Shown here: one piece after another, positions 38,619 to 64,000 of the stretch
Numbering within the stretch: position 1 is the stretch's first letter
Layout: every line of letters begins with the position of its first letter
Source of the DNA: Streptomyces marispadix
GTDB lineage: Bacteria; Actinomycetota; Actinomycetes; Streptomycetales; Streptomycetaceae
Assembly (NCBI RefSeq): GCF_022524345.1
Contig: NZ_JAKWJU010000002.1
Coordinates: 6,500,001-6,564,000 of the forward strand
DNA: 64,000 nucleotides
Direction: 5' to 3'
Notes under the pieces: generated by a model
Told to the model about the DNA's origin: nothing
The model's database searches: none
What the model saw: the letters and a program-made list of their open reading frames with translations, nothing else
Made by a program: the position numbers and the translations under genes

Positions 38619-38825
38619 ATGACCAATCCATTCGACGACGAGAACGGCTTGTTCTATGTGCTCGTCAACGACGAACGGCAGAATTCCCTGTGGCCTTCGT
38701 TCGCCGATGTGCCCGAGGGCTGGACGATCGCCTTCGGTGAGGACAGCCGCCAGGCCTGCCTGGATTACGTCGAGGAGAACTGGACGGACATGCGGCCCGC
38801 GCACCTGGTGAACGAGGGCCGCTGA
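38619..38825 (+). CDS. mbtH: MbtH-like protein
   Basis: A 68-residue protein with the full MbtH pattern: [33 protein letters not shown] and the C-terminal [14 protein letters not shown] with its conserved tryptophans. MbtH-like proteins bind NRPS adenylation domains and are needed for their folding or activity; here the clients would be the A domains at 43147, 53770 and 61580. AAAGGGA precedes the ATG. It is the first gene of the cluster and is separated from the next by 543 bases, so it may have its own promoter in 38413-38618, where I found no confident -35/-10 pair. Confidence 0.97.
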
Positions 38826-39368
38826 ACGAGCCGCACCTGACGGGGCCGCCGGGCGAAGCGCCCGAGCGGCCGGGGGCGTGCCCGACGTCCGTACGGCGGG
38901 TTCATCCGGCTGGTATCGCCGTCACTGCCTGGGCGTTTCCCGCATCGGGCGGGGGAGCGGCCCAGGCATTTCCGTGTCCGCCCATGCGCCTGCCGGTCTG
39001 CCGGGCCGTCGGACCGCCGCGTCACCGCCCGCCCCTCGCGCCGCCGTGAGTGGTCTCCACCAAAGAAGGCGGCGCGACCGGTCGCCACGGACCGCCCGTC
39101 CGCCGTCTCCAAGCCCGGAACATTGGATTCCGCCAGGCTTGCCCGTCCTTAATCCGGGCAGAGCGTCCATACTCGGGCCACTCCGCTGAAAAATCGCCCA
39201 GAGACACCCACTCCAGCGTCATCGCCGATACGGGGTAAATCGACGAACCGTTGAATGGGCCACCTTTCACGACCCCTTCACGAAGAGCCTGCTTTTCGAA
39301 TTCATCTCTTCTCCCGGTGAAGGTCGGCGCTGTAGCATCCCGAGCGACCAGAAAAACGGGGAGGACGC
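38826..39368. other. Intergenic region with a lower-GC right half
   Basis: No gene is confidently supported. The right half (about 39040-39368) is visibly less GC-rich than the surrounding genes. An open minus-strand frame here (from GTG 39264 to a stop near 39022) would encode about 80 residues with protein-like composition, including EWVSLGDFSAEWPEYGR, but has mixed third codon positions and only a marginal GAAGGGG upstream. It could be a gene remnant or a small antisense gene. A TAGCAT near 39334 may be a -10 element for the biosynthetic operon that starts at 39369. Confidence 0.35.
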
Positions 39369-59928: not shown

Positions 59929-62900
59929 ATGAGCATGCTCCCGGCCGGGGGCGGCACGGACGAGGGGCGCGACACCGTGCGGGGCGAGGCGGACGGCGCG
60001 GCGCACGGCGGCGCGCACGAAAGCGCGCGAGGCGCCGCGCAACGCACCGGCGACCCGGGCGGCGTCCCTCTCACCGCCGCCCAGTCAGGCATGTGGATGG
60101 GCCAGGCACTCACCCCCGGCTCGGCCCGCTACCACGTCGGAATCGCCGTCGAGGTCCAAGGGACGCTCGACCCGGCCACCTTCGAATCGGCGTTCCGGCA
60201 GGTCGTGTCCGAAGCGGAAGGGCTGCGGGCGCGTTTCGCGGTCGACGCCGACGGCCGACCCCGCCTGCACCCAGGGCCGTCGGCCGACTGGGGCGTGCCG
60301 TTCGTCGACCTCGGCGGCGAGGCGAGCCCACGGCGCGCCGCGATGGCATGGATGCGCGCCGATCTGGCACGGCCCTTCGACCTGGCCGATGGGCCCCTCT
60401 TCCGCGGGGCGTTGCTGCGGCTGTCGGACACGGCCGCCTGCTGGTACCTGGGAGCACACCACCTCGTGCTGGACGGCTTCAGCTCCTCGCTCTTCGCTCG
60501 CCGCCTCAGCCGCGTCTACGGCGCGCTGGAACAGCGACAGCCCGCACCGGCAGGGGAGTTCGGGCCGCTTCGAACACTGCTGGAGGAGGAGGCCGCCTAC
60601 CGCGACTCGCCCGCCCGCCTCGCCGACCGGGGCTTCTGGCTGGGACGTACGGCCGATCTGCCCGAACCGGGCGACCTCACCTGGGGTACGGGCACCGGCG
60701 GCACCCGCGCACCCGGCGGACTCGCGGTCCGCCGCAGTGCGATGCTTCCCGCCGCCGACTGGCGCCGAGTACGGGAAGCGGCAGGCCGGCTGGGCGTTCG
60801 CTGGCCTGTGCTGGTGACCGCCGCCGCAGCGCTGCTGACCCATGTACGGACCCGTGCGGGCGAAGGCACGGATGACGGAAGGGGCGACGGGAGGCGCGGC
60901 GCCGACGAGGTCGTGCTCGGCCTGCCCGTCACCGCCCGCGTGGGGGAGGCCGCCCGCACCGTGCCCGGAATGGCCTCCAACGTGGTGCCGCTGAGGGTGC
61001 CCGTGCACGCGTGGCGCCCCCTTGCCGACCTCGTACGGGCCGTGGGCGCGGAGATGACCGCGGCCCTCGCCCATCAGCGTTACCGCTACGAGGACTTGCG
61101 CCGAGACCTCGGCCTGACCGGCGGCGGCACGGCCGGCGGCGGCCCCGCCGGGAGGCTGTATGCGTCGGCGGTGAACGTGCTGCCCTTCGACTACGGGCGG
61201 CACTTCGCGGGGCGTCCGATGATGATGCGCAACGTCGCGATCGGCCCCGTCGAGGACCTGTCGATCACAGTCCACCGCGACATCCAGCCCGGCGGGCGCA
61301 GCGGACAGGGCGCGGACAGCGTGGGGCTGCGTGTCGAACTCGACGCCGATCCGGGCCGGTTCGCCGCCGCCGAGGCAGCGGCCGAGGCCCGGCGGTTCCT
61401 ACTGCTGCTGCGCAGGCTCGCCGACGATCCCGGTCTGCCCGCCGGGCGGCTCGATCCGCTGACGGCAGGGGAGCGGCGCCTGTTCGTACCAGGGGCGCCC
61501 CGACCGGCGCGCCCCACCCGGGCGTTGAGACCGGTGTCGGCGACCGTTCGGCCGGGAGACGAGGGGCGCCGACCCGCCTCGACCCTGGCCGACCTGGTGG
61601 ATCGCTGGACCGCACGCACCCCGGGGGCGGTGGCGGTCACCGCGGGGGAGACCGCACTCACCTACAAGGAACTCGACGCTCGCGCCAACCGCCTCGCCCG
61701 TCTGCTGATCCGGCGCGGCGCGGCCCCCGAACGCCTCGTCGCCGTCGCGCTGCCGCGCTCCGCGGACCTGGTGACCGCGATCCTCGCCGTCGCGAAGTCG
61801 GGAGCGGCCTGTCTGCCCGTCGATCCGCGCTGGCCCGAGGAACGCATCCGTACGATCCTCGCCGACGCACGGCCCGTACTGACGCTCACGCCCGGTGAAC
61901 TCGCGGAAGCGGAAGGCGAGCCGGGCGACCCTGGCCTCGGCGCGCCCGTGACCGACGAGGACCGTCACGCCCCGCTGACGCCCTCGAACGCCGCCTACGT
62001 CATCTACACCTCCGGCTCCACGGGCCGCCCCAAGGGCGTCGTCGTCCCGCACCGCAATGCCGTGGCGCTCCTCGAAGAGGCCGCGGCGCCCTTCGGCTTC
62101 GGCCCGGACGACGTGTGGACGATGTTCCACTCCTGCGCGTTCGACTTCTCCGTATGGGAGTTGTGGGGTGCGCTCGCACACGGCGGCCGGCTGGTCGTCG
62201 TCGGCCACGACGTGAGCCGCTCACCCCGTGCCCTCCTGGAACTCATCGCCGACGAGCGCGTCACCGTGCTCAACCAGACGCCGTCCGCCTTCCTCACCCT
62301 CGACCGCGCCGACGCCGAGGAGCCACGCTCACGCCGCCCGACGTCGCTGCGCCTCGTGATCTTCGGAGGGGAGGCCCTGCACCCGGAACGGCTGCGACCG
62401 TGGTGCGAGCGGCACGGGGCGGACGCGCCCGCCATGGTCAACATGTACGGCATCACCGAGACCACGGTGCACGCCACCAGGCTCGAACTGCACGACGGCC
62501 ACCGCGCCGAGAGCGGCAGCCCCATCGGAAGGCCCATAGCGGGCACCCGGCTGTATGTGCTGGACGAGCGGCTGCGCCCCGTACCGCCCGGCACCACCGG
62601 CGAGTTGTACGTGGCGGGGGCCGGCGTCGCACGCGGCTATCTCATGCTGCCCGGCCTGACCGCTTCGCGTTTCGTCGCCGACCCGTTCGGGCCGCCCGGG
62701 TCGCGGCTGTACCGTTCCGGAGACCTCGCACGCTGGCGCGCCGACGGCGGGCTGGAGTACGCGGGCAGGGCCGACGACCAGATCAAGGTGCGCGGTTTCC
62801 GCATCGAACCCGGCGAGATCCAGGCCGCGTTGGCCGACGCCCCCGGCGTCGCGCACTCGGCCGTCATAGCCGCCGGTACCGAGCGCGATGCGTCCGGCGA

Positions 62901-64000
62901 CGACGAGGCCCGGCTGGTGGCGTATGTCGTCCCGGACGGCACTCGCCGTGACACGGGCCGCTTCGAGGACGCGCTGCGCGGACATCTCAGCGCCCGGCTG
63001 CCCGCGCATCTCGTACCGTCCGTGTTCGTACCGGTGGACAGGCTGCCGCTGACGGCCAACGGCAAGCTCGACAGATCCGCGCTCCCGGAGCCGGTGGCGC
63101 GCAGCAAGCCGCCGACCCCCGCCGGACAGCGGACCATGAGCACGCTGGAGCGCCGACTCGCCACGCTCTACGGCGAGTTGCTGGGCGTAGCCGATGTCGG
63201 CCCCGAGGACGGCTTCTTCGACCTGGGCGGGGACAGCCTGCGCGCGACCCGCCTCGTCGGCAGGGTACGCGGCGAACTCAACGCCGGGATCGACGTCCGG
63301 GACGTCTTCGAACGTCCCACCGTGGCGGGTCTCGCCGCCGTGCTCACCACACGTCCGCCGGTCCGCCGCCCGTCCCTGGCGGGCACGGAAGGAGGGCGGC
63401 CGGAGAGCGTCCCGCTGTCGCACGCCCAGCGGCGGCTGTGGTTCCAGCAGTCGCTCACCGGGCCCGACGCCGCCTACAACGTGCCGCTGGTGCTGCGGAT
63501 GAGCGGCGACCTGGACGAGGACGCCCTGCGCTCGGCCGTTCTCGACGTGACGCGTCGCCACGAACCGCTGCGAACCGTCGTACGCACCACCGCCGAGGGC
63601 CCCGAGCAGAAGGTGCTGCCGCCCGGGGAGGCCCCCGTATGGCTGCCGGAGGTGGAGACCGAAGCGGAGCTGCTCGACGGGGAGTTGTCCGCCGCCGCCC
63701 GGCACGCCTTCCGTCTGGAGAGCGAACCGCCGCTGCGGGCAAGGCTGTTCACCACCGGCCCGGACCAGCATGCGCTGATGCTGCTGCTCCACCACATCGC
63801 ATGCGACGCGGCGTCGCTCGCACCGCTGCTCGACGACCTCGGCACCGCCTACGCCGCGCGCCGCGCGGGACATGCGCCCAAGTGGGAGCCGCTGCCCGCC
63901 CGTTACGCCGACTACGCGCTGTGGCAGCGCACGCTGCTCGGCCAGGACCGGGCCGGTACCGGCGACGCTGACGGCACGAGCGAGGCCGCCTCCGCGAGCG
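59929..64000 (+). CDS. NRPS: C-A(Thr)-PCP-C..., runs off right edge
   Basis: From ATG 59929 the frame is open for 1357 codons to the edge. After about 45 low-complexity residues comes a condensation domain with intact [11 protein letters not shown], then an adenylation domain ([34 protein letters not shown]). Aligned by eye to GrsA, its code is DFWNIGMVH-K, identical to the classic threonine code. A carrier domain ([14 protein letters not shown]) and a second condensation domain ([20 protein letters not shown] with both His and the Asp present) follow before the window ends. The first C resembles starter or post-PKS types, so this protein may begin a chain. MbtH at 38619 may assist its A domain. 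It lies 49 bases after the TE-containing synthetase. Confidence 0.94.

Follow-up and report, generated by a model that had tools for sequence, protein, structure and literature searches.

How does a ketosynthase (KS) module obtain its extender unit when its own acyltransferase (AT) has lost the nucleophile? The question is raised by a hybrid non-ribosomal peptide synthetase/polyketide synthase (NRPS/PKS) cluster of Streptomyces marispadix, most of which lies in the stretch of 64,000 nucleotides studied here (the window; positions 6,500,001-6,564,000 of a contig in a 6.70-Mb genome). Besides the KS, it encodes FkbH, a free acyl carrier protein (ACP), two dehydrogenases and a protein similar to 3-oxoacyl-ACP synthase III (KAS III). 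The answer towards which we lean, with somewhat better than even confidence, is that this KAS III-like protein is a trans-acyltransferase, moving hydroxymalonyl from the free ACP to the dead-AT KS module. The original prediction, made from the sequence of the window, had placed these genes in one coupled operon, and they do form a single co-directional locus. It overlooked a KS module apparently without a working AT, what looks like an acyltransferase-type site in the KAS III-like gene, and the pairing of both.

The KS retains its active-site Cys, His and His, as read from its motifs. Behind it and its linker come about 200 residues where Pfam sees no AT; the domain is shrunken and reads LISSGVS where a GxSxG nucleophile motif would be expected. 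An alignment of this region, A3 (the window and 49 loci, 50 sequences, built from loci fetched by means of KAS III), was matched to four intact ATs by hhalign with 96.9% probability. The catalytic serine of GHSxGE aligned with a position occupied by Gly in 49 of the 50 sequences and by Ala in the remaining one: the serine is lost in all of them. An AlphaFold2 model of the region (pLDDT 89), submitted to Foldseek, retrieved KS-AT structures, DEBS module 1 first (E-value 8e-6), with CurL and SpnD AT, the ten rows of matches spanning 8e-6 to 7e-4. PF00698 was detected in just six of the 50 members of A3, at E-values up to 1, and the AT homology of the dead domain therefore rests on hhalign and fold. 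In 61 KS-bearing frames (60 KAS III loci) we met two loose GHSxG-type matches, in the second KS of L091 and in L061, where the match falls, by our reading, in the linker. The frames of L067 and L083 stop before the AT position; hence 57 frames are informative, all negative. The KS domains of 59 loci are 39-88% identical to that of the window, and among 120 KS relatives listed, 119 have no GxSxG behind the KS (the exception is P0194). The sequences thus argue for an AT that is catalytically dead.

What, then, could replace it? To judge from its alignment, the KAS III-like protein bears the Cys-His-Asp site typical of KSIII-fold acyltransferases such as ChlB3 and CerJ. Cys125, His317 and Asp322 are invariant in the 16 sequences aligned, the last two within GHLGxxD. 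The position of the Claisen histidine of FabH (His244) is occupied by Gln in 15 of the 16 (Gln286 in the window; P0099 has His), and the FabH His and Asn positions read Gln and His. ChlB3 ranks first in a search with the single sequence, and in fold comparison NatS (34.5), ChlB3 (34.2) and DpsC (33.6) come before the remaining rows (32.6 or less). ChlB3, which has Cys-His-Asp, places an aryl starter onto an ACP, while CerJ moves malonyl onto a sugar, an activity lost when these residues are changed (PMC9573744; here as elsewhere, PubMed Central papers are cited from excerpts). The likeness to CerJ and ChlB3 (and, by fold, to DpsC and NatS) is thus one of fold, of Cys-His-Asp with GHLGxxD and of a missing Claisen histidine; identity to CerJ and ChlB3 is ~20%, and neither, as far as the excerpts go, loads an extender on a KS module (PMC9573744).

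Across genomes, the two anomalies go together. In a sample of 295 genomes of the genus, KAS III matches (E-value 1e-40 or better) occur in 18: scores exceed 470 bits for 12 genes, spread over 10 genomes, and range from 151 to 282 for the remaining 11 rows. Dead-AT matches (1e-25 or better) occur in 13 genomes, and 12 modules above 220 bits belong to the same 10 genomes as the strong KAS III, G036 and G072 holding two of each; there the two genes are always within 6.2 kb of each other. For the thirteenth dead AT (185 bits, in G205) the KAS III is of a diverged type and lies 9.8 kb off, in an ACP-FkbI-KAS III-FkbH row. A class sample (345 genomes) gave four dead ATs, all paired with KAS III at 3.3-6.2 kb; its fifth KAS III genome, G569, has the diverged type within an FkbH cassette. 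Among 298 genomes from the order of G542 (which itself counts in both samples), five of five dead ATs have KAS III on the same contig. When modules are counted once, all 20 dead ATs above 180 bits are paired, within 10 kb, in 18 genomes of three families; as clusters are co-inherited, these cases are not independent.

The third component is the supply of hydroxymalonyl. We take the zwittermicin set to be ZmaN, ZmaD, ZmaG and ZmaE, and that of FK520 to be FkbH-K; as in those systems, the window has FkbH, a free ACP, a 3-hydroxyacyl dehydrogenase and an FkbI-type dehydrogenase in one locus. Its FkbH lies well above the NCBIfam cut-off (Table 1) and is the sole match in the genome. Among solved structures the acyl-CoA dehydrogenase finds its nearest match in FkbI (1r2j; E-value 1e-64, 222 bits; next structure 161 bits); the phosphopantetheine serine is present in the ACP and a Rossmann motif in the FkbK-like enzyme. 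At the gene level the four-gene set is complete, and reading it as a hydroxymalonyl-ACP route is sound; the kind is already known, because in the butyrolactol A cluster of Streptomyces all four zwittermicin enzymes have homologues, in the excerpts no O-methyltransferase was found nearby, and labelling is consistent with hydroxymalonyl (PMC5355916). That cluster is a type I PKS without NRPS, and the part of its gene table at hand has no KAS III-like gene (PMC5355916). In the window, Pfam scans of 24 proteins (26251-72398; one 90-residue gene lay outside them) showed no methyltransferase, which bears out the predicted lack of an O-methyltransferase; hydroxymalonyl would therefore remain unmethylated. 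The predicted route stands, then, as a complete and clustered gene set, while an unmethylated hydroxymalonyl loses its novelty, being known from zwittermicin and butyrolactol.

A whole-genome search found FkbH in all 18 dead-AT genomes, in 12 of them at 1.6 kb or less from KAS III. The others are instructive. A full ACP-FkbI-FkbH-FkbK row closes the cluster in G733 and G745; it lies 8-14 kb past the KS and ~11 kb away from the dead AT. G036 and G072 have one FkbH each, located in a third cluster (L147, L154) as part of a distinct cassette that also encodes a diverged KAS III; hydroxymalonyl supply may there be shared between clusters. In G542 the ACP and FkbI-like genes lie close to the cluster, with FkbH at another place in the genome; G806 shows no supply genes within 40 kb and again has FkbH elsewhere. 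At the level of the 69 KAS III loci, each fetched with a 10-kb flank, a KS is present in 59, FkbH in 41 and both in 38; the 41 loci with FkbH have within reach an FkbI-like gene (41), an ACP (40) and an FkbK-like gene (31). Two (L077 and L098, apparently those of G745 and G733) of the 21 KS-bearing loci without FkbH have it further off, so that this figure is partly an effect of the flank; L061 and L075, also among the 21, are cut by contig ends. A reading of these 21 of 59 as clusters without hydroxymalonyl loses its footing with the presence of FkbH in 18 of 18 genomes and with the distant rows of G733 and G745. It seems that dead AT, KAS III and hydroxymalonyl supply together make up a set of three, the supply sometimes being drawn from another place in the genome.

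More distant lineages offer a further view. Nine regions with diverged KAS III were fetched (L144-L151 and L154). In L144, L147, L150 and L154, genes for KS, FkbK-like protein, ACP, FkbI-like protein, KAS III and FkbH are consecutive. No AT family matches the KS genes of L144, L147 and L150, whose domain order is KS-linker-ACP-reductase; in L145 a KS without an AT is encoded nearby on the other strand; L146 is the region of G205, and L148, L149 and L151 have no KS on the fetched stretch. Diverged KAS III in FkbK-ACP-FkbI-KAS III-FkbH rows thus adjoins AT-less KS genes, which we count in favour of a loader. The reductase-bearing clusters (L144:6930-16407, L147, L150, L154) are likely to release an aldehyde or its onward product. 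Many KS proteins without GxSxG among the matches listed come from Nocardia and Rhodococcus, and these genera were considered as a counterexample, since KAS III matches came from neither, among the best 120 of 328 and the best 120 of 314 matches. The case is weakened by G898, where such a module has a more diverged KAS III 4.3 kb away, between FkbI and an FkbH-A-PCP fusion (A, adenylation domain; PCP, peptidyl carrier protein). The fusion of FkbH to an A-PCP protein at L166:5173-8025 (950 residues) belongs to a genome outside the taxonomic order of the window.

What the gene set, the dead AT, the acyltransferase-type site and the constant pairing, all plain in the sequence, would amount to may be told as follows; the individual reactions, the choice of carrier, the module order and the final product are here our inference. 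FkbH would load a glyceryl unit onto the free ACP, and the FkbK- and then the FkbI-like dehydrogenase would oxidise it to hydroxymalonyl-ACP. As the AT of the KS module is dead, the KAS III-like protein is proposed as the loader: its Cys125, which His317 and Asp322 would activate, would accept hydroxymalonyl for delivery to the ACP that follows the KS. The KS would join this unit to the amino acid carried by the A-PCP protein (A1), giving an alpha-hydroxy-beta-keto-gamma-amino acyl unit, and a condensation (C) domain would pass the chain on. The NRPS genes would then add threonine, a valine-like residue and one unassigned residue, before release by the thioesterase (TE).

A number of observations weigh against this scheme. 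The KAS III profile, by contrast with the single sequence, favours FabH structures (best E-value 1e-14) over ChlB3 (1.5e-9). Three of the 69 KAS III loci have FkbH without KS, and seven have neither (six of these on short stretches). The figure of 18 of 18 for FkbH refers to the dead-AT genomes. Co-inheritance in one cluster could hold genes together without a common reaction. The A3 profile derives from loci fetched by KAS III, so that dead ATs unlike these fall outside its search. G161 and G260 (98-106 bits) have Ser-to-Gly ATs of a different KS type, the former without any KAS III match and the latter with distant ones only (up to 44 bits); judging from them, an AT can lose function without a KAS III partner. 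The KS gene is broken in this assembly. Finally, eight AT-domain (PF00698) matches exist elsewhere in the genome. There is no discrete FabD-fold AT in the cluster, all eight places being outside it, and FabD or another AT could load the module instead.

This last point leads to the strongest rival, to which we would still grant rather poor odds: FabD would load the dead-AT module with malonyl, and the KAS III-like protein would put hydroxymalonyl on a hydroxyl or amine of the peptide, in the manner of CerJ. Both halves have a precedent, FabD loading the AT-less module of a detoxin-like pathway (PMC12828459) and CerJ placing malonyl on a sugar (PMC9573744), and the genome has AT domains elsewhere. 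It equally expects FkbH in 18 of 18 dead-AT genomes, and, FkbH being present in all of them, loci without FkbH no longer argue against it. What it leaves unexplained is why KAS III stands beside the dead AT in 20 of 20 modules, and why diverged KAS III is found next to AT-less KS genes.

Two further readings seem improbable to a similar degree. The KAS III-like protein might serve the assembly line as a chain-release or N-acylating transferase, independent of the extender; several Amycolatopsis-type loci, in the part read, do end in KAS III after a synthetase without TE. Yet the cluster of the window already has a TE, KAS III lies directly upstream of the free ACP and FkbI-like genes both here and in Streptomyces californicus, and across 39 loci its distances track FkbI (r 0.88) and FkbH (0.80) above KS (0.72). 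Or else the cluster might be decaying, a view compatible with the others: the KS frame ceases to match its relatives at ~47,455, the ACP-C frame continues from within a homopolymer, and several domains, including C motifs, are degenerate. But homopolymers are a usual site of assembly errors, and the break may be one. Moreover, relatives carry KS through ACP-C as one open reading frame (ORF), the dead AT precedes the break, and dead AT and layout are common to intact relatives. These include plasmid NZ_CP070247.1 of S. californicus, where the gene order is kept from KAS III to the last NRPS and the KS protein is a single ORF of 1,536 residues. There, one Pfam C domain stands where the window shows two stretches, the MbtH gene does not figure in the incomplete gene table, and KAS III is annotated as 3-oxoacyl-ACP synthase.

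Least probable of all is a tetronate-like release in which a FabH-like protein joins FkbH-made glyceryl-ACP to the finished chain: the tetronate set of tetromadurin does include FkbH, ACP and a FabH-like protein (PMC7489565), and the KAS III profile gives good scores to FabH structures, but in the window both glyceryl-oxidising dehydrogenases accompany this trio, a TE is present, and the FabH His/Asn positions read Gln/His (a comparison made without a tetronate FabH sequence).

How does the putative KAS III-type loader compare with known systems? In zwittermicin an intact cis AT does the loading (ZmaA-AT, GYSFG; PMC4207774), whereas in the window the AT is dead and a KAS III-like gene is part of the cassette. 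The detoxin/rimosamide lines resemble the window cluster, as proposed here, in being NRPS-PKS with an AT-less KS module loaded in trans; their layout is A-T-C-A-T-KS plus KR-T-TE (T, thiolation domain; KR, ketoreductase), malonyl arrives via FabD, and the excerpts make no mention of KAS III or FkbH (PMC9503745, PMC12828459). FkbH is common to the window, tetromadurin (PMC7489565) and foxicin (PMC5318452), and the window further has in common with the tetronate set an ACP and a FabH-like protein; that set uses unoxidised glyceryl (PMC7489565), while the window has both oxidising dehydrogenases, and foxicin has an in-line FkbH, cis ATs and a different gene order (PMC5318452). Layout, as far as the excerpts give it, rules out foxicin and detoxin/rimosamide as matching clusters. 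In line with the predicted unfamiliarity of the gene set, we found no open-licence PubMed Central paper with the whole set or with a KAS III loader for a dead AT, nor, among the papers listed, one that brings hydroxymalonyl together with KAS III/KSIII. PMC6164871, which treats hydroxymalonyl and trans-ATs, leaves KSIII, KAS III, CerJ and FabH unmentioned in the excerpts seen.

The new point, a putative KAS III-fold partner of a dead AT, is well supported by sequence comparison. We would put at about even the chances of its wider form, namely that in a widespread class of actinobacterial NRPS-PKS a KAS III-fold protein replaced the AT as dedicated hydroxymalonyl loader, the AT shell being kept and its serine lost, with the FkbH cassette in the cluster or elsewhere. 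Extender loading is one of the main points at which polyketide synthases can be re-engineered, and the loaders in the cited papers, in the excerpts at hand, are of AT fold (cis AT, trans AT, FabD). If the wider form is true, extender units are loaded in a third way besides cis AT and FabD-fold trans AT, and a new tool would be at hand, a small soluble loader of non-AT fold that draws hydroxymalonyl from a carrier protein. A function could then be assigned to a protein annotated as 3-oxoacyl-ACP synthase (strong form in 10 of the 295 genus genomes sampled), and the products, a family for which we found no structure, would be expected to contain alpha-hydroxy-beta-keto amino acid units or units derived from them.

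It remains to describe the locus (Table 1). The gene model covered the window and 49 kb rightward, with Pfam scans of its proteins. The cluster, all on the + strand, runs from 38,619 to ~69,807, where opposite-strand genes start and set its right border; its final 5.8 kb lie beyond the window. The order is MbtH, KAS III-like, ACP, acyl-CoA dehydrogenase, FkbH, A-PCP, KS, ACP-C-C, 3-hydroxyacyl dehydrogenase, then two NRPS genes, C-A-PCP-E-C-TE and C-A-PCP-C-A-PCP-E-C (E, epimerisation domain, by motif). Four-base overlaps link KAS III to ACP and acyl-CoA dehydrogenase to FkbH.

Table 1. Features of the S. marispadix cluster, in window positions.
Feature	Position	Strand	Evidence
MbtH-like protein (NRPS A-domain helper)	38619-38825	+	PF03621 E 4.9e-28
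KAS III-like acyltransferase, proposed hydroxymalonyl trans-acyltransferase	39369-40484	+	Cys125, His317, Asp322
Free acyl carrier protein	40481-40738	+	PF00550 E 3.3e-6; LVDSL phosphopantetheine site at 40571
FkbI-like acyl-ACP dehydrogenase (proposed second oxidation)	40783-42012	+	Top PDB match FkbI 1r2j
FkbH	42009-43136	+	TIGR01686 235 bits, cut-off 146.65; DLDDT HAD motif
A-PCP loading module (A1)	43147-45168	+	PF00501, PF13193, PF00550; code DGGIVAEI
Ketosynthase domain and C-terminal extension	45233-46618 (start approximate)	+	PF00109 E 2.7e-55, PF02801
KS-AT linker and predicted dead AT domain	46619-47455	+	LISSGVS at 46991 where GHSxGE expected
Reading-frame change in homopolymer	47440-47475	+	Sequence; single ORFs in relatives
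In-line ACP (48091), C domain (48730), degenerate C domain (50170)	47458-51195	+	PF00550; PF00668, two stretches
FkbK-like 3-hydroxyacyl dehydrogenase (proposed first oxidation of glyceryl-ACP)	51232-52233	+	PF02737 E 8e-46, PF00725; GAGTMG
NRPS C*-A2-PCP-E-C-TE	52356-59879 (start approximate)	+	Pfam, motifs, A2 code DVACSAVV
NRPS C-A3(Thr)-PCP-C-A4-PCP-E-C	59929-64000, on to window-equivalent 69807 (L007:6929-16807)	+	Pfam; A-domain codes

The A-domain codes of the last gene, DFWNIGMVH (A3) and DAFWWGGTF (A4), presumably denote threonine and a valine-like residue; the threonine module that had been predicted would thus be its first A domain. The predicted epimerase likewise appears to be in place, and twice: by position and motif, E-type domains follow A2 and A4, one in each large NRPS gene, where Pfam labels them Condensation. 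Behind the in-line ACP the first C domain has an intact motif (MHHGVNDG) and the second reads THRDVYDG, while the first C domain of the gene ending in TE has HPCVLDE instead of HHxxxDG. With these two lacking, by our reading, the catalytic His, the last two NRPS genes may act in either order; the terminal C domain of the last gene could serve the TE-ending gene.

Some other features deserve mention. At L152:5424-12533 and L153:5507-12223 there is a shrunken AT with GHGxGE (serine to glycine), without KAS III of this family, adjoining a synthase gene with an intact GHSQGE motif. In S. californicus (L155:2805-10141) genes for a hydrolase, a methyltransferase, an ABC transporter and an FAD oxidoreductase precede the cluster; they are not at that place in the window. 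The window has two adjacent predicted genes (33543-35570; 167 and 504 residues) without Pfam match and, immediately upstream of MbtH, a gene for a C39-like peptidase (36945-38327).

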